Source of the DNA: Clostridium algifaecis
Lineage (GTDB): Bacteria > Bacillota > Clostridia > Clostridiales > Clostridiaceae
DNA: 64,000 bases
Assembly (NCBI RefSeq): GCF_017874415.1
Contig: NZ_JAGGLM010000002.1
Coordinates: forward strand, 124,001-188,000
Reading direction: 5' to 3'
Shown here: positions 6,101-63,670 of the stretch, one piece after another
Position numbering within the stretch: the stretch's first letter is position 1
How the letters are laid out: each line of letters begins with the position of its first letter
The notes under the pieces: model-generated
The model's input: only the letters and a program-made list of their open reading frames with translations
What the model was told of the DNA's origin: nothing
Database searches by the model: none
Translations under genes and position numbers: made by a program

Positions 6101-6580
6101 TTAATAGAATTTTCTGAGCTGTTTAACCAATAACACGCCTACAATAGCTGGAATTATCTGTCCTATTGATAGACTAGAGGCAAGTATGATGTATTTAATA
6201 TGGAGAAGGTAGGATAACCATATTGGTACTCCAAATCCAGGTATTAAGATAATTGGAATAACGATAAACCAATCATTTAATTTATATTTACTTATTAAAT
6301 ATACTAAAAATGAAGTTATCATACCTACAAGTGCTCCTCCGACCATATCGGGAATTCCAAGTCCGCCCATTAGAGTATTACTAATGAGATTGCTTATTCC
6401 CATTGGTATAATAAGAAATGGAAAAATAGCGGATAAAGAATATAGGGCTGTTGCTATTCTTATCTGAAATTGCATAAAAGCAAAGCTCTGTGTAAAATAC
6501 ATTATTATAACATACATTGCTATAACAATACCGGAAATAGCAATTTTATTTACATTTGACAAATTTTTTTTAACCATCAT
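6101..6580 (-). CDS. queT: QueT family queuosine-precursor transporter
   Basis: A small, very hydrophobic protein of 159 residues with about five membrane segments. It resembles the QueT family, small membrane proteins linked to uptake of queuosine precursors such as preQ1, sometimes as the substrate-binding component of ECF transporters. Recognised features are the [15 protein letters not shown] start and the central [16 protein letters not shown] segment. Its ATG overlaps the queC stop codon by 4 bp (ATGA), so the two are translationally coupled. It is the last gene of the operon led by a preQ1-like riboswitch, which supports the assignment. It ends 14 bases from the convergent sbcC stop. 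Confidence 0.82.
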
Positions 6581-7260
6581 TTATTTTCTCCTTCATATTT
6601 TAATGGGTCTACATATCCGGCTTCTTTGAATGCTTTTAGCCTTAATTTGCAGCTGTCACAAACTCCGCAAGGAAGTTCTCCACCTTTATAACATGTCCAT
6701 GTTTTGCCATAATCTACATGTAATTTCATACCAAGTTTAATTTCTTCTGATTTTGCCATGTTGATAAATGGTGCATGTATCTTTATTTTCTTTCCATCTT
6801 CTACAGCACATACAGTTCCTAAATTTATTGCTTTTTCCATAGAATCTATAAATTCATGTCTGCAATCCACATATCCTGAGTAATCAACTTCACTTACACC
6901 TATGAATATGTCTTGAGCTCCTATTGCCTCTGCATAGGAAGCTGCGTAAGATAAAAATATCATATTTCTTGCAGGAACATAAGTAACAGGTATTTTTTCA
7001 TAGTTAGTGTTTGATTCAGGTACATTTATATTTTTATCTGTAAGTGCAGAACCACCCCAGGCATCCATATTTGTATTTACAAGGATAAAATTAGCTGCGC
7101 CTGCACTTTTTGCTGCATTTCTGGCACATTCAATTTCTTTTTTATGCCTTTGACCATAGTTAAAGCTCAGAGCATAAACTTCATAACCCTGACTTTTGGC
7201 TAAATACAAAGTCGTGGTGGAGTCAAGTCCACCTGACAATAAAACTACTGCTTTTTTCAT
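6577..7260 (-). CDS. queC: 7-cyano-7-deazaguanine synthase QueC
   Basis: QueC converts 7-carboxy-7-deazaguanine to preQ0 using ATP and ammonia, a core step toward queuosine in tRNA wobble positions. The 227-residue protein has the N-terminal PP-loop SGGLDSTT, the SFNYGQRH motif, and a C-terminal zinc site made by [16 protein letters not shown]. The start codon overlaps the stop of the upstream activator gene by 4 bp, and AAAGGATGG inside that gene serves as ribosome binding site. No queD, queE or queF is present in the window. Being third in a preQ1-controlled operon fits its pathway. Confidence 0.96.
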
Positions 7261-8021
7261 TTTAAATCCATCCTTTCAGCGTAATAACAACATCCTAATG
7301 CTCCATTAAATTGGGCATCCTTTAAAACTATTATTTTTTCGTAATCATCCTTTAAATAATTGTTTATAGCTTCATTTCCAGCAACTCCACCTGATAAAAT
7401 AAGATTTTTCCCGTGAAATCTAGTTAAAAATGGTTTGATTCTTTTGTAAAGTGAATAATTAACACCTGCACATAGCCTTTCAATTTCAATTCCCTCTGCT
7501 ATTTTACCAATCAATTCTGATTCGGAGAAAACTGCACAGGTAGAATTTAATTCTACGGGATTTTTATAAAATGTGAATAATTTATCTAGAGGAACCTCCA
7601 ATATGTTTGCCATATTTTCAAGATATCTTCCACTGGAAGCCGCACATTTTTCGTTAAGTTCAAGATCAACTATTAATCCTTTTTCTACTTTAACTACTTT
7701 AATATCTTGTCCACCTATATCAAGAAGTATAAAATTTTTTAAACCTGTTTGAAAAATTGCTCCATAAACATGTGCTTTTATTTCATTTATGGGTTTAAAT
7801 AATTTTAGATTTATATTATTTCTACCATATCCTGTTGAAACTGATGAATCTATATTTTTAATGTTTAATTTTTTAAGGTTTACTATCATTTTGCCATCAT
7901 AACTACAGAAATCTCTATAAAAACTCATTGTGCTTATTTTATTTTTAAATACAATTTTCCCATTTTCCATTAAAGCTATTTTTACTTCTCTACTGCCTAA
8001 ATCGATGCCAAGTCTTCTCAT
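7257..8021 (-). CDS. HgdC-like ATPase activator of a 2-hydroxyacyl-CoA dehydratase-type enzyme
   Basis: A 254-residue member of the BcrAD/BadFG/HgdC ATPase family (archerases). These homodimers carry a [4Fe-4S] cluster and use ATP hydrolysis to push an electron at very low potential into a partner. Seen: an actin-like fold start [35 protein letters not shown] with cluster Cys126, and TCAVFSESE with Cys162, matching the two cluster cysteines of HgdC. AGGTGA sits ahead of the ATG, which overlaps the upstream stop by 4 bp. The partner is almost certainly the preceding gene. The physiological substrate is unknown; location between that gene and queC points to deazapurine metabolism. Confidence 0.9.
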
Positions 8022-9037
8022 AATGTCACCTGCTTATTCATGATAATTAGATCCTGCAGCATATCAAGAAATGCTTCCAATCTTATTTTTGTTCGGGCAT
8101 CTAAAAAGTTCAACCTATCGCCCTCTATATTTAATACAGGTATATTTAATTCATTTTTTATAACTATATCCTCAATTTGTCTATGACAGAATGCTTGAGT
8201 GTAATGAATCAAAGCATCTATTTTTCTTTCTTTAATCTGCTTTTTTATTTCCTTAAGCCTAAATTTTATGTCATATGGGTAAGTATAGTCATAGTACTGC
8301 TCATAAATGTTTTTTGCCTGTAAAGCTCTTGGAAATGCAAATTCTCTTTGAACTTCATTATAAACGAAACGGGCATTAAATTTTTCAACATAGTCATATA
8401 TATCACAGGGCATTGGAGGCACACCTATAAAACCAAGCCTTAATTGTTGGGTAAAAGGCTCTCTCTTTTTTACTTCTTCAATTTTATTTTTAATATCACT
8501 TTCAAATTTATAAATGTCACCATTAAAATCACTTGAACTTACCTGGTACAGATGGTTTTCAAAGCCAGAAACCTTGTTTTCTTTATAAGTAAGCTCATCT
8601 AAATACTTTACAAGACATCTTATTTTGTTTATTCTTTGTCTAACTTTTTCAACTTTATCAAAAGAGACATTAAAAGTATTCATAAAATTATCAATGGATA
8701 ACTTTATATCTTGAATGTTATGACTCTGAGGGAAACTAAAAGGATATATTTTAATACCCTTCATATCCAGAACTTCTTCCAAAGCTTTAGTATTGGAACA
8801 ATCACCTTCAGTAACACCTACAATTTCTTTGAAATTTTTATCAATACATGCTCCAAAAATCCCCTTTTGCCATGCACAGCAGCTTTTGGGAAATCCTTCT
8901 GTTTCTGCTATGTCAATAAACTTTTTATAATTTTCTGAAGTTACAAAAATATTATTTAAATCAACTACATTATATCCGGCAGCAATTAAAACTTCGCAGG
9001 GGATAGTAGTAGTTATTCCTACAGTTTTATTTTTCAT
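8018..9037 (-). CDS. HgdB/FldB-like iron-sulfur protein, 2-hydroxyacyl-CoA dehydratase D family
   Basis: This 339-residue protein belongs to the 2-hydroxyacyl-CoA dehydratase / benzoyl-CoA reductase subunit family, which also includes the double-cubane-cluster proteins. Cysteines that could bind clusters are Cys14 (TIPCEVLIAAG), Cys53-Cys54, Cys64, Cys80 (EGDCSN), Cys211 (PPMPCD) and Cys284 (QAFCHRQ). The C-terminal half has the typical ALIHYTQAFCHRQ and NIPVLNIEGD stretches. Only one such subunit is encoded, unlike the heterodimeric dehydratases, and no CoA-transferase or acyl-CoA dehydrogenase lies nearby. It is the first gene after the preQ1-like leader and overlaps the activator gene by 4 bp. 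The family call is firm; the substrate is not known. Confidence 0.88.
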   Translation of the reverse strand: MKNKTVGITTTIPCEVLIAAGYNVVDLNNIFVTSENYKKFIDIAETEGFPKSCCAWQKGIFGACIDKNFKEIVGVTEGDCSNTKALEEVLDMKGIKIYPFSFPQSHNIQDIKLSIDNFMNTFNVSFDKVEKVRQRINKIRCLVKYLDELTYKENKVSGFENHLYQVSSSDFNGDIYKFESDIKNKIEEVKKREPFTQQLRLGFIGVPPMPCDIYDYVEKFNARFVYNEVQREFAFPRALQAKNIYEQYYDYTYPYDIKFRLKEIKKQIKERKIDALIHYTQAFCHRQIEDIVIKNELNIPVLNIEGDRLNFLDARTKIRLEAFLDMLQDLIIMNKQVTL

Positions 9038-9083
9038 TATGACCTCACTTTATTTCTAATTAAGTTTTAATATAGAAGCATAT

Positions 9084-9111
9084 AAAAAAGGGCAGAGAAA
9101 CCTCCACCCTT
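9084..9111 (-). terminator. Intrinsic terminator in the preQ1-like leader
   Basis: On the minus strand AAGGGTGGAG pairs with CTCTGCCCTT (10 bp with two G-U pairs) around a GTTT loop, then a run of six T. It lies between the aptamer and the first gene (start 9037), so it is the likely expression platform for ligand-dependent termination. Confidence 0.82.
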
Positions 9112-9143
9112 ATAATTAGCAAACTATATAATCTATAGTTAAT

Positions 9144-9185
9144 CCATAGTTTTGTTTATATAGACAGGATGGTTACGAACTGTCT
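9144..9185 (-). promoter_or_regulatory. PreQ1-I class riboswitch aptamer
   Basis: Minus-strand RNA forms the stem AGACAG/CUGUCU (bases 9180-9185 with 9162-9167) around a loop containing UUCGUAACCAU. An A-rich tail AUAAACAAAACUAUGG follows. The loop CCAU can pair with tail AUGG (9144-9147), giving the H-type pseudoknot of preQ1-I riboswitches. The UAACC loop and AACAAAAC tail resemble the known Thermoanaerobacter tengcongensis aptamer. A terminator follows, and queC and queT lie in the operon, both expected for a preQ1 switch. Not confirmed by a covariance model. Confidence 0.78.
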
Positions 9186-9205
9186 TATGTAGTTTTACAT
9201 GCCTT

Positions 9206-9234
9206 ATTGTATACTATAAAGTGTTTAAAATCAA
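9206..9234 (-). promoter_or_regulatory. Sigma-A promoter of the preQ1-controlled operon
   Basis: On the minus strand TTGATT (9229-9234) and TACAAT (9206-9211) are separated by exactly 17 bp. Transcription would start near 9199, a few bases before the riboswitch stem. Confidence 0.7.
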
Positions 9235-9239
9235 GGACT

Positions 9240-9470
9240 TTAATAAAAAAACAGAGATTTCGCATCTAAAGTATATACTCTAGCATTAAATTCATCTTTA
9301 CCAATATATATTAATCTTCCAATTTGATTTTTTTCAATTTTATCAAAAGTTGGCAAGTTAAGTAGTTCAGATTTACTAGGTATTTTATTAATCGGCAACT
9401 TGTTAATGTGTATATTAGCTGCAACTGCTGTGGAATGGGCTCCTCCCACATCATGGTATATAACTATCAT
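9240..9470 (-). pseudogene. Truncated DUF3189 family gene
   Basis: The 76-residue product begins MIVIYHDVGGAHSTAVAA and contains FDKIEKNQIGRLIYIGKDE, which resembles the first half of DUF3189 proteins, usually about 150 residues. The frame then stops at 9240, right against the promoter of the neighbouring operon, so the C-terminal half is missing. A full AAGGAGG site precedes the ATG, so the remnant may still be translated. The function of DUF3189 is unknown. Read as a 3'-deleted gene. Confidence 0.6.
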
Positions 9471-9560: not shown

Positions 9561-10160
9561 TTATACCATTTCGCTTTTTTCATCTAACTTTTGATACATT
9601 TTTTCCTGCTGTTTGGTTGTAAACTGAAAATATATTTCTGTATTTGAGACATCTTTATGTCCTAACCACCATTGGAGTTCTTTTATATCCATATCCGATT
9701 CTGCAAGATGAACGGCAGTTGTATGTTTAATAGTATGAAAATGATGTTTTGATTCATCTTCGATACCTGCAAGTGAACAATATTTTTTCATTAAATAATT
9801 TAAGGTTTGTCTAGAAATAGGGGCATTCTTTTGGCTTTTAAATAATATTTCTGAAGTTGAAGTTATATTATTTTGAGCTATGTATTTGTCTAAAACTGTT
9901 TTTGTTTTATAATCCAATCTTAAAGTATTGTTATTGCTTCCTTTAAGTCTTTTACAATATAGTTCACCTTTTGAAATATTATAATCTTGAAGTTTTATTA
10001 AAGGAATTTCTGAAACTCTTAAACCACATCTATAAGCAATTCTAAAAATCGCCAGATCTCTAAGAGAATGAGAAGTATAAGATTTCTTTATTGCATTAAA
10101 AAGATTTTTCGTTTCGGATTGAGTTAAATATTTAATTCTATTTTCATCGTTTTTTCCCAT
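9561..10160 (-). CDS. Tyrosine recombinase (small site-specific integrase)
   Basis: This 199-residue protein covers little more than the catalytic domain of the phage integrase family. Seen: the first catalytic arginine in CGLRVSEI, a lysine region RLKGSNN, the box HTIKHTTAVHLAE in place of the usual HxLRH, the WWLGHKD histidine, and a likely nucleophile tyrosine in TEIYFQFT. The second arginine is therefore lysine, a variant I recall in some small clostridial and proteobacterial integrases. No N-terminal arm-binding domain is present. It sits beside two related palindromes and several gene remnants, so it is probably a leftover of, or tool for, a mobile element or DNA inversion. Confidence 0.85.
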   Translation of the reverse strand: MGKNDENRIKYLTQSETKNLFNAIKKSYTSHSLRDLAIFRIAYRCGLRVSEIPLIKLQDYNISKGELYCKRLKGSNNNTLRLDYKTKTVLDKYIAQNNITSTSEILFKSQKNAPISRQTLNYLMKKYCSLAGIEDESKHHFHTIKHTTAVHLAESDMDIKELQWWLGHKDVSNTEIYFQFTTKQQEKMYQKLDEKSEMV

Positions 10161-10635: not shown

Positions 10636-11094
10636 GTGTATAGAAAAAACAAATATAATTTAAAGAAAATAGAAACTGACAGGATATATAAACGTGTATT
10701 TAGTATGGATAATGTTGGAGTTTGGGAATGGAATATAAATAAAGATCAGATGTTCATTAGTGGTGTAAATATTGCACTAGATGACTTTGGAACGGGATAT
10801 TCTTCTCTAAACTATTTAATTACTTTGCCAGTTAACACATTGAAAATAGATAAATCATTTATTGATAATATTAAAAGTGATAAAAATAAAGCTGTAATTA
10901 ACAGTATAGTGCATTTATCAAAATCTTTAAAATATAAAATAATTACTGAAGGTGTAGAAACAAAAGAACAAATGGATTTACTTACTGGATTGGGATGCAA
11001 TATAATTCAAGGTTATTATTTTAGTAAACCTCTTCCAGAAAACGAAATTGAAAACTTATTAAAAAGTCAAGGCGAAATTTTGAAAATTAGTTAA
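10636..11094 (+). pseudogene. Internally deleted PAS/EAL signalling gene
   Basis: The 152-residue frame starts at a GTG behind GGGAGG. Residues 1 to about 36 look like the start of a PAS domain (SMDNVGVWEWNINKDQMF). The sequence then jumps directly into the middle of an EAL phosphodiesterase domain (NIALDDFGTGYSS, then KIDKSFID, EGVET and IQGYYFSKPLP). The rest of PAS, any GGDEF domain and the first half of EAL, including the EAL motif itself, are gone, while the frame stays open. Cyclic-di-GMP hydrolysis is not expected. An in-frame deletion of a larger sensor is the simplest reading. Confidence 0.8.
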
Positions 11095-25079: not shown

Positions 25080-25175
25080 TAAGCTTTGAGATAAAAACAC
25101 TATTCGGTTGGTAGTCCGGATGCGTTTTATACGTAAGTAACCTACCCTCCTGGGGTTGTCCATTCTCTATATAAG
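25080..25175 (+). promoter_or_regulatory. Probable yjdF riboswitch
   Basis: The untranslated leader of the yjdF gene contains a dense set of GC-containing conserved-looking blocks in otherwise AT-rich DNA: TTCGGTTGGTAGTCCGGATG, GTAAGTAACCTACCCTCC and TGGGGTTGTCC. GGTAG can pair with CTACC. This fits my memory of the yjdF motif RNA, which binds azaaromatic compounds and regulates yjdF translation. The other part of the 24897-25201 gap is AT-rich and holds no gene that I can see. Identification rests on position and partial motif recall. Confidence 0.65.
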
Positions 25176-25201
25176 CTTTGTGTATAAACAGGAGGAGAAA
25201 A

Positions 25202-25609
25202 ATGATTAAATTGACGGTTTTTTTTGAAGATCCATTTTGGAAGGGAGTTTTCGAAAAAATTTGTAATGGCAAGCTTGAAATATGCAAAGTGGTTTTTGGG
25301 AAAGAACCCAAGGATTATGAAATATATGAGTTCGTTTTAAAAAATTATTATAAACTTGAATTCAGTAAACCATTATTGGTTGATGAAAAGCTTGAATTGA
25401 AATTAAACCCTAAGAAAATGCAGAGAAAAATTCGAAGAACGCTACAGAAAAAAGGAATTGGTACAAAATCTCAGCAAGCAATGAAACTTGATTATGAAAA
25501 TAGAAAGATTGAAAGAAGGGTAATATATAAAGAAAAACGGGAAGAAATAGAAAAATTGGAATATCAAAAAAGACAGGAAAAGAAAAAACAGAAGAAAAGA
25601 GGACATTAA
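25202..25609 (+). CDS. yjdF: YjdF family protein (DUF2992)
   Basis: The 135-residue protein begins MIKLTVFFEDPFWKGVFE and includes KVVFGKEPKDYEIYEFVL, both typical of YjdF. The C-terminal half is strongly basic and helical (KKMQRKIRRTLQKKGIGTKS, then many Lys, Arg and Glu), suggestive of nucleic-acid binding. Its function is not established; it is the usual gene behind the azaaromatic-sensing yjdF riboswitch, so a role in coping with toxic aromatics has been proposed. I start at the ATG at 25202, 6 bases after AGGAGG. A TTG at 25178 would fall in the leader RNA and is rejected. Confidence 0.9.
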   Translation: MIKLTVFFEDPFWKGVFEKICNGKLEICKVVFGKEPKDYEIYEFVLKNYYKLEFSKPLLVDEKLELKLNPKKMQRKIRRTLQKKGIGTKSQQAMKLDYENRKIERRVIYKEKREEIEKLEYQKRQEKKKQKKRGH

Positions 25610-61633: not shown

Positions 61634-61806
61634 TAGTGGGAGAGTTATGGCTATTGCCATTCACCGAAGAAGTAAATCTTTCAGGTACCTATTTAATTAG
61701 AGATGACCGCTATTGGATGAATCCTTGGAGAGATTCTTAATGGACACCGAAGGAGCAAGCCATATGTATGGCAAAAACTCTCAGGTAAAAGGACAGGGGA
61801 CGGGTA
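61634..61806 (+). promoter_or_regulatory. Tandem glycine riboswitch
   Basis: Two glycine aptamers are arranged head to tail. The first shows GGGAGAGTT, CACCGAAGAAGTAAA and CTTTCAGGTA, the second GGAGAGATTC, ACACCGAAGGAGCAAG, ACTCTCAGGTAAAAGGACAG and a closing GGGGACGG. These are the signature blocks of the gcvT-type element, which senses glycine and usually switches expression on. Downstream lie a possible symporter remnant and a cycA-like permease. I see no clear terminator between, so the expression platform is not identified. Confidence 0.93.
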
Positions 61807-62281: not shown

Positions 62282-63670
62282 ATGTCGGAAAATCAAAATT
62301 TATCAAGAGGATTAAAAAATCGTCATATTCAATTACTTGCAATTGGAGGTGCAATTGGCACTGGATTATTCCTTGGTTCAGGCAGGTCCATTCACTTGGC
62401 AGGTCCATCTATTTTATTTGCATATGCAATAACAGGAATAATGTTATTTTTTGTAATGCGTGCACTTGGGGAATTATTGCTTTCTAATTTAAACTACCAT
62501 TCCTTTGTAGACTTTGTATATGATTATCTAGGAGAGGGAGCAGCATTTATTACTGGATGGACCTACTGGTTCTGCTGGATTTCACTTGCTATGGCTGACG
62601 TAGCTGCTACTGGACTTTATATACAATACTGGTTCCCAAATGTAGCAAGATGGGTTCCAAGCCTTATAGTTCTTGTAATTTTACTGATTATGAATCTTAC
62701 TGCAGTAAAGTTATTCGGTGAAATGGAATTTTGGTTTGCATTAATTAAGGTTATTGCAATTTTAGCACTTATTGTAGTTGGTACAGTTATGATTATAAAG
62801 GGATTTTCTACAAATGCAGGTTCATCTAGCTTTGCAAACCTTTGGAACTATGGCGGTTGGTTGCCAAATGGAGTAAGTGGCTTTATACTTTCCTTCCAAA
62901 TGGTTGTATTTGCTTTTACAGGAATCGAATTAGTTGGTATAACAGCTGGTGAAACTGAAAATCCAGAACATGTTATTCCAAGAGCTATTAACAATATTCC
63001 AATTAGAATTATTATTTTTTATATTGGAGCACTTGGTATTATTATGAGCATATACCCATGGAATTCAGTTAATCCAGGTAAAAGCCCATTTGTACAGGTA
63101 TTTACTTCAATGGGAATCACAGCAGCAGCGAGTATTGTAAATTTTGTTGTATTAACATCAGCTGCATCTGCTTGTAACAGCGGTATTTTTAGTACAAGCC
63201 GTATGGTTTATTCGCTTGCTAAAGAAGATAATGCACCTAATTCAATGAAAAAATTAACTTCTAATCATATACCTTGTAATGCTGCAATATTTTCTGCAGC
63301 TGTTATCTTGATTGCAGTTATTTTGAACTACATTATGCCGGAAGGGGTATTTGTACTTATTACAAGTATATCAACATTTTGCTATATATACATTTGGGCA
63401 ATTATAGTTATCTGTCATATAAAATATCACAGAACTAAGCCTGAACTTGCTGCTAAGAACAAATTCAAAATGCCGCTTTATCCAATTATAAACTATTTAA
63501 TTTTAGCATTCTTTGCTTTTGTTATAGTTACATTGGCATTTAATAATGAAACTCGTGTAGCTCTATTTGTAACACCTGTATGGTTTATAATGCTCGGAGT
63601 TATTTACAATATACGTAAATCAAAAATAAAAAATGAAAATAAAGAAGATGTCAAAAGAGATTTAATATAG
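62282..63670 (+). CDS. cycA: CycA-like D-serine/D-alanine/glycine permease
   Basis: The 462-residue APC permease closely follows E. coli CycA as I recall it: LKNRHIQLLAIGGAIGTGLF, FVMRALGELLLSNL, TGWTYWFCWISLAMADV, VKLFGEMEFWFALIKVIAIL, FAFTGIELVGITAGETENPE, NFVVLTSAASACNSGIFSTS. About twelve membrane helices. The transporter takes up glycine, D-alanine and D-serine by proton symport. AAAGGCGG precedes the ATG. It lies some 475 bases behind a tandem glycine riboswitch, so glycine itself is expected to control it, in agreement with the assigned substrate. A terminator follows. Confidence 0.92.
   Translation: MSENQNLSRGLKNRHIQLLAIGGAIGTGLFLGSGRSIHLAGPSILFAYAITGIMLFFVMRALGELLLSNLNYHSFVDFVYDYLGEGAAFITGWTYWFCWISLAMADVAATGLYIQYWFPNVARWVPSLIVLVILLIMNLTAVKLFGEMEFWFALIKVIAILALIVVGTVMIIKGFSTNAGSSSFANLWNYGGWLPNGVSGFILSFQMVVFAFTGIELVGITAGETENPEHVIPRAINNIPIRIIIFYIGALGIIMSIYPWNSVNPGKSPFVQVFTSMGITAAASIVNFVVLTSAASACNSGIFSTSRMVYSLAKEDNAPNSMKKLTSNHIPCNAAIFSAAVILIAVILNYIMPEGVFVLITSISTFCYIYIWAIIVICHIKYHRTKPELAAKNKFKMPLYPIINYLILAFFAFVIVTLAFNNETRVALFVTPVWFIMLGVIYNIRKSKIKNENKEDVKRDLI

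Follow-up and report, generated by a model that had tools for sequence, protein, structure and literature searches.

A predicted ATP-dependent preQ0 reductase in the place of QueF in a queuosine operon of Clostridium algifaecis

An operon of four genes behind a conserved leader

This study concerns a two-gene system of Clostridium algifaecis, an HgdB-like protein and its HgdC-like ATPase activase (hereafter the pair), encoded in a 64,000-nucleotide stretch of the genome (the window; positions 124,001 to 188,000 of contig NZ_JAGGLM010000002.1, assembly GCF_017874415.1) together with genes for queuosine precursors. The genes hgdB, hgdC, queC and queT form a tight minus-strand operon (Table 1), with ATGA at each of its three junctions. 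All four products score over the curated Pfam cut-offs (HGD-D 125.5 bits against a cut-off of 28.4, BcrAD_BadFG 99.6, QueC 271.1, QueT 94), and the QueC protein also reaches 228.8 bits with TIGR00364, where the cut-off is 150.3. The four genes joined by three ATGA overlaps that a preliminary description had read from the DNA are thus borne out in gene calls, overlaps and Pfam families, and its broader proposal, that the pair acts in deazapurine/queuosine metabolism under a preQ1-type aptamer, is supported by the analysis below.

Table 1. Features of the pair operon, in window coordinates
Feature	Position	Strand	Remarks
preQ1-I (type I-like) aptamer	9139..9189	-	P1 GACAG/CTGTC, loop TTCGTAACCATC, tail AAACAAAACTATGG
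Intrinsic terminator, between aptamer and hgdB	9088..9111	-	10-pair stem, 4-base loop, T tail; forms in RNA fold
hgdB (HgdB-like catalytic subunit, 339 aa; proposed preQ0 reductase)	8018..9037	-	Pfam PF06050 (HGD-D)
hgdC (HgdC-like ATPase activase, 254 aa; proposed ATP-driven electron donor)	7257..8021	-	TIGR00241; BcrAD_BadFG
queC (7-cyano-7-deazaguanine/preQ0 synthase)	6577..7260	-	TIGR00364 equivalog
queT (S component of ECF transporter, queuosine precursors)	6101..6580	-	PF06177

The leader, described earlier as a promoter, an aptamer and a terminator, holds up in part. The terminator stands, with one found against 0.2 expected in shuffles, whereas the promoter match (TTGATT-17-TACAAT, 9234-9206) is not above chance, four being found in the region against 3.8 expected. 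The aptamer stands through its conservation. In a 401-base search with all 4227 Rfam families, PreQ1 (RF00522) matches 9188-9140 of the minus strand at 25.1 bits (E 0.0047), below the gathering score of 39, and the aptamer is therefore not listed by a whole-window Rfam scan. Rejection of the riboswitch by a covariance search had been named as evidence against the earlier proposal, and it is found only in the narrow sense that this gathering score is not reached, which is why the aptamer needed support beyond Rfam. Gathering-score Rfam scans of 20 pair loci and nine QueF loci listed PreQ1 in none, and the Rfam model seems under-sensitive for this aptamer subgroup.

In many genomes the pair is preceded by a closely similar motif of about 49 bases. 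A covariance model (R1) trained on 26 motif copies detects it at 48 of the 55 distinct pair loci (60 before removal of five duplicates); 11 of these 48 lay outside model building, and three of the 11 are Fusobacteriota. The window copy, which belongs to the training set, scores 65.7 bits. At E <= 1 the model matched none of the eight QueH, QueG and Tgt loci that served as negative controls (L046-L051, L054 and L055). The type I signature GACAG-UU...UC-CUGUC...AAAACUA, with UU after the 5' strand of P1, UC before the 3' strand and an A-rich tail, occurs in 26/26 aligned copies; such UU and UC flanks characterize the type I subgroup in the excerpted text of PMC11625349. The P1 sequence is invariant in 46/46 rows from Clostridia to Fusobacteriota, under a search pattern and a model that both favor this P1, and because it never varies in the 46 copies it offers no compensatory changes, and R1 leans on sequence. 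On the strength of sequence conservation across pair loci, and not of the Rfam score, the aptamer is real, and we infer that a preQ1-type aptamer, presumably with preQ1 as its ligand, controls the pair operon.

A single HgdB-type subunit and its activase

PF06050, to which HgdB belongs, is the benzoyl-CoA reductase/2-hydroxyacyl-CoA dehydratase superfamily, and the predicted structure of HgdB has the two-domain alpha/beta fold of this family, matching BzdNO, HAD and DCCP (VIA-align). Its Cys54, Cys80 and Cys284 are invariant in 55/55 aligned rows; judged on residues, these supply a three-cysteine catalytic [4Fe-4S] site like that of BzdO and HadB, with the cluster itself predicted. Members of the HgdC family are homodimeric ATPases in which one [4Fe-4S] cluster is shared between two subunits. 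The window HgdC matches TIGR00241 at 166.2 bits (cut-off 125.4) and the profile of 1hux with E 3.9e-44, and both of its cluster cysteines, already noted in the preliminary description, are present as C126 and C162, invariant in 56/56 aligned HgdC rows. The superfamily performs one-electron reductions driven by ATP, and DCCP reduces acetylene, hydrazine and azide, according to the excerpted text of PMC11971306; the pair, too, is probably an ATP-driven low-potential reductase.

In line with the earlier claim, a single HgdB-type subunit was found, a search of the host genome with HgdB of the window having brought up no second such protein at E <= 0.001. Because only one HgdB-type gene was found and the heterodimer of two HgdB-type subunits is thus lacking, HgdB is a member of the PF06050 superfamily and not HAD or BCR proper. 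Both (R)-2-hydroxyisocaproyl-CoA dehydratase (3O3M) and BzdNO (8S02) have two HgdB-type genes where the window has one; HgdB is 13-19% identical to these proteins, and most pair loci lack a CoA context. A double-cubane enzyme was also considered and rejected, as NF040772 gives 45.6 bits against an equivalog cut-off of 350, and in the double-cubane cluster protein DCCP, which works with its reductase DCCP-R (6ENO, 7YYL), six cysteines (as named for BzdN in the excerpted text of PMC11971306) hold the [8Fe-9S] cluster, whereas the window HgdB has three invariant ones. A tree of 17 HgdB rows, with 7 of 14 inner branches well supported, underpins no claim here. A phage-borne role was also considered and rejected, as 50,697 phage records gave no match. 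The only plasmid match fell within a queD-queE-folE-queC operon on the Ilyobacter polytropus replicon of 0.96 Mb.

The pair and QueF exclude each other in the sampled genomes

We searched 175 genomes of the host's family for the pair (profile A1), QueF, QueH, QueG, QueC and Tgt. The pair is present in 53 and QueF, as a full-length match, in 44, and no genome has both. Among the 91 genomes with QueC, 52 have the pair only, 38 QueF only, none both and one neither, while the 84 without QueC hold the pair once and QueF six times. A class sample of 226 genomes has the pair in 18 and QueF in 23; of its 32 QueC genomes, six of which are also in the family set, 17 have the pair, 15 have QueF and none has both or neither, leaving one pair genome and eight QueF genomes without QueC. 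Both states occur inside five genera (pair/QueF counts of 4/1 in g1, whose QueF genome lacks QueC, 5/1 in g2, 4/1 in g4, 3/23 in g17 and 2/2 in g25), so the pattern does not reflect one old split. QueF was over cut-off in none of the 10 genomes of a first pair set, three Fusobacteriota included, and the host genome gave no QueF match. Judged by gene content, the step vacant in pair genomes fits the conversion of preQ0 to preQ1 by QueF, and the more general fallback of the preliminary description, reduction or salvage of another deazapurine, agrees with this assignment.

The counts depend on how matches were sorted. For QueF, 44 genomes had a full-length match (>110 bits), whereas the matches of 36 others were all weak (21-33 bits, up to position 59) and were set aside as FolE; eight of the 36 pass Pfam's own cut-off, the pair genome G075 among them. 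In the family sample only QueC matches from about 200 bits upward were counted, with a short match in G112 dropped, and at class level the thresholds were E <= 1e-15 for QueF and E <= 1e-30 for QueC; family lists were transcribed and class counts tallied by hand. The dropped match of G112 (L102, genus g24), a genome without the pair, scores 42 bits and lies in a 51-codon open frame. The genome retains aptamer-queD-folE, and the pathway there may be decaying along with loss of the pair.

The same survey bears on the chemistry that was originally favored, in which the pair would be a third epoxyqueuosine reductase replacing QueG/QueH on tRNA. Its location in a queuosine operon and its plausibility as a reductase agree with such a role, but QueG (41) or QueH (12) is present in 53/53 family-sample pair genomes, which therefore already possess an enzyme for epoxyqueuosine reduction. 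The host itself has QueG (contig 34, 250.8 bits, cut-off 200), and what the pair tracks is QueC and the absence of QueF. Co-occurrence rules out replacement and leaves only redundancy, making this role very unlikely. Tgt, for its part, has matches in 174/175 family-sample genomes, 172 of them over cut-off.

Operon context of the pair and of QueF

In the first set of ten pair loci, a que gene adjoins the pair in nine. At eight, queD follows the pair and is succeeded by queE, folE and queC where the contig continues (genes identified via NCBIfam at L002, L007 and partly L010, and by likeness at the remaining loci); the eight include three loci from Fusobacteriota, of which two break off after queD, and L007 lacks folE. 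Clostridium akagii has the pair followed by queT, and Ruminiclostridium papyrosolvens has the pair alone. Of 20 further loci, que genes adjoin the pair at 14. The pair is thus seen before queD-queE-folE-queC, queC-queD-queE, queC-queT or queT, and in Ilyobacter polytropus DSM 2926 the annotated order is 2-hydroxyacyl-CoA dehydratase, activase, queD, queE, folE, queC, preceded by the aptamer. The QueC proteins of these loci belong to two lineages, and QueD/QueE also differ in lineage, so the pair and que genes probably became linked more than once. None of the stretches inspected around the pair showed a queF gene. In family f53 (L077-L079, L081), two small genes follow queE, the first of which in L077 belongs to the uracil-DNA-glycosylase family, with the second alike by eye.

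These neighborhoods also bear on whether the pair could be an ordinary 2-hydroxyacyl-CoA dehydratase or acyl-CoA reductase in an incidental neighborhood. Pfam and NCBIfam family names do refer to CoA substrates, and genes for acyl-CoA dehydrogenase, ETF and CoA-transferase precede the distant homologue L082. However, a que gene stands beside the pair at 9/10 and 14/20 loci, the aptamer is shared and only one HgdB-type subunit was found in the host, which renders this explanation extremely unlikely. Conservation mainly beside acyl-CoA genes, which had been named as contrary evidence, was not found, although L082 has such genes upstream.

Nine QueF loci (6-12 kb stretches), on which the aptamer model was not trained, provide the counterpart. 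Eight carry the motif, and L121 has queF without it. The orders are aptamer-queT-queF (L119, L120, L122, L125), aptamer-queT-queF-queC (L124) and aptamer-queD-queE-folE-queC-queF (L118, L123, L126). Compared with pair-queC-queT, pair-queT and pair-queD-queE-folE-queC, these orders indicate that the pair occupies the place of QueF in otherwise matching operons. In pair genomes with que genes (queD/queE/queC) elsewhere, the second operon can carry the aptamer too (L100, L103, L105, L107, L110).

Co-occurrence and gene order cannot name a substrate, and many pair loci directly adjoin queD/queE, as one would expect if the pair served another preQ0/preQ1 step (electrons for QueE, or another deazapurine) while some other protein took the QueF step. 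However, the pair also occurs without QueD: in a search of 33 genomes, chosen by hand and not at random, QueD was found in 20, and not in the host, the same-genus pair genomes G091, G114 and G128, or G106. The pair also stands in the place of QueF in otherwise matching operons, and another enzyme would need the same distribution; we consider this alternative unlikely.

A proposed nitrile reductase

QueF is an NADPH-dependent preQ0 nitrile reductase with a T-fold (PF14489) and a thioimide cysteine. The evidence combined makes it very probable that the pair stands in for QueF as a reductase of preQ0 (7-cyano-7-deazaguanine) that depends on ATP and is sensitive to oxygen. HgdB is no QueF, as Pfam lists HGD-D only and not PF14489, and the fold differs; by context it would act like QueF. 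The likeness lies in the proposed reaction, the operon slot, the aptamer and the mutually exclusive distribution in the samples searched, and the difference in unrelated folds, with one gene, a thioimide cysteine and NADPH on the one side and two genes, a predicted Fe-S cluster and ATP on the other.

In the mechanism that we propose, HgdC would use ATP to pass low-potential electrons singly from its C126/C162 cluster to the HgdB-type subunit, which is probably a homodimer because no second HgdB-type gene was found. In that subunit, Cys54, Cys80 and Cys284 would bind a [4Fe-4S] cluster that has one open iron. At this cluster, four successive one-electron reductions would turn the preQ0 nitrile into the aminomethyl group of preQ1, and this product would pass onward to Tgt, QueA and QueG. 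Binding of preQ1 to the leader aptamer would halt transcription at the terminator and so provide feedback. More generally, we think it quite probable that the benzoyl-CoA reductase/2-hydroxyacyl-CoA dehydratase superfamily includes a second biological nitrile reductase, a radical enzyme with a [4Fe-4S] cluster that is driven by ATP and converts preQ0 to preQ1 in anaerobes, with a free deazapurine and not a CoA ester as its substrate, and with a nitrogenase-like four-electron reduction of a C-N triple bond at a simple three-cysteine cluster.

Several observations weigh against a preQ0 reductase in the place of QueF. An ATP-driven route looks costly, given that QueF needs NADPH only. The sampled genomes are related and not independent, so that the Fisher values for exclusion (7.7e-9 in all 175 genomes, 6.4e-25 in QueC genomes) overstate independence. 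The QueC genome G045 (88% complete) has neither the pair nor QueF, G229 has the pair without QueC and QueD, and in G152, which also lacks QueC, the pair is partial and lies at the end of a contig. A weak QueF-profile match (21-28 bits, up to position 59) is found in 8/53 pair genomes, that of G075 equaling the Pfam cut-off of 27.3 exactly; we take these as probable FolE, as the two checked, L091 and L092, are FolE, with coordinates identical to the weak QueF rows of pair genomes G012 and G107. The aptamer motif as modelled is without a match at the seven most distant pair loci (L077-L083), one of which, L080, has a leader that ends at the contig end. Four short QueF loci (L042-L045) have no motif inside their stretch, L042 being a short form of the motif-bearing L118, and of 20 QueD loci (about 1.5 kb flanks) eight have the motif and 12 do not, with some leaders lying outside the stretch. 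Six of the 20 further pair loci lack a que gene beside the pair (L072, L073, L080, L082, L083, L087), including all three homologues of family f23 (L080, L082, L083), which also lack an aptamer match. Because f23 lacks que context and aptamer and L082 has its acyl-CoA genes upstream, the outermost homologues could do something else.

Probable salvage in the host

The host genome has QueC, QueT, Tgt and QueG. As QueD is absent, and as one operon joins queC and queT to the pair while Tgt and QueG are encoded elsewhere, this operon most likely serves salvage, in which an imported precursor (7-carboxy-7-deazaguanine or preQ0) would be taken through preQ0 to preQ1; this is less certain than the replacement of QueF by the pair. 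A partial salvage pathway of gut bacteria termed ‘Ac’, consisting of QueC, QueF, Tgt, QueA and QueG/QueH, is described in the excerpted text of PMC6593275. The host resembles this variant in its QueC, Tgt, QueG and QueT and its lack of QueD, and the pair stands where ‘Ac’ has QueF.

Relation to previous work and significance

The QueF reaction was the only known biological nitrile reduction according to the excerpted text of a 2017 paper (PMC5372742). In the open-access literature we found no paper joining queuosine with 2-hydroxyglutaryl-CoA dehydratase, nor any that links it to benzoyl-CoA reductase, 2-hydroxyacyl-CoA dehydratase, CoA-substrate-specific enzyme activase or double-cubane, although earlier print elsewhere is possible, and in searches on QueF, preQ0 reductase and missing genes the titles and opening lines of abstracts named no QueF replacement in queuosine synthesis. 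A ‘QueF-Like’ paper (PMC5485725) concerns archaeosine synthase. Both the reaction and the fold superfamily are therefore known, and it is their combination that was not found in open-access print.

If the assignment is correct, the pair would be a second, non-orthologous solution to nitrile reduction, with another fold, cofactor and energy source, and would explain how anaerobes that make preQ0 manage without QueF. It would give a defined substrate to a group annotated merely as ‘2-hydroxyacyl-CoA dehydratase’, offer a small system for metal-based nitrile reduction, and could correct pathway reconstructions that score such genomes as incapable of making preQ1.

Other features of the window

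Upstream of the operon, a 76-aa DUF3189 protein (9240-9470, minus strand) matches only profile positions 2-70 of 147 and may be truncated; C. akagii likewise has a relative, of 162 aa, upstream of its pair (L004, 6358-6846). Further neighbors are a phage-integrase-family gene (9561-10160, minus strand) and an EAL-domain remnant (10636-11094, plus strand) that covers only profile positions 145-236 of 236. Elsewhere in the window, an azaaromatic (yjdF) riboswitch (25081-25179, plus strand, 80.8 bits) is followed directly by a short, basic open frame that begins at 25202 and is yjdF-like by eye, and a glycine riboswitch aptamer (61715-61806, plus strand, 53.6 bits) lies upstream of an amino-acid permease gene (62282-63670).

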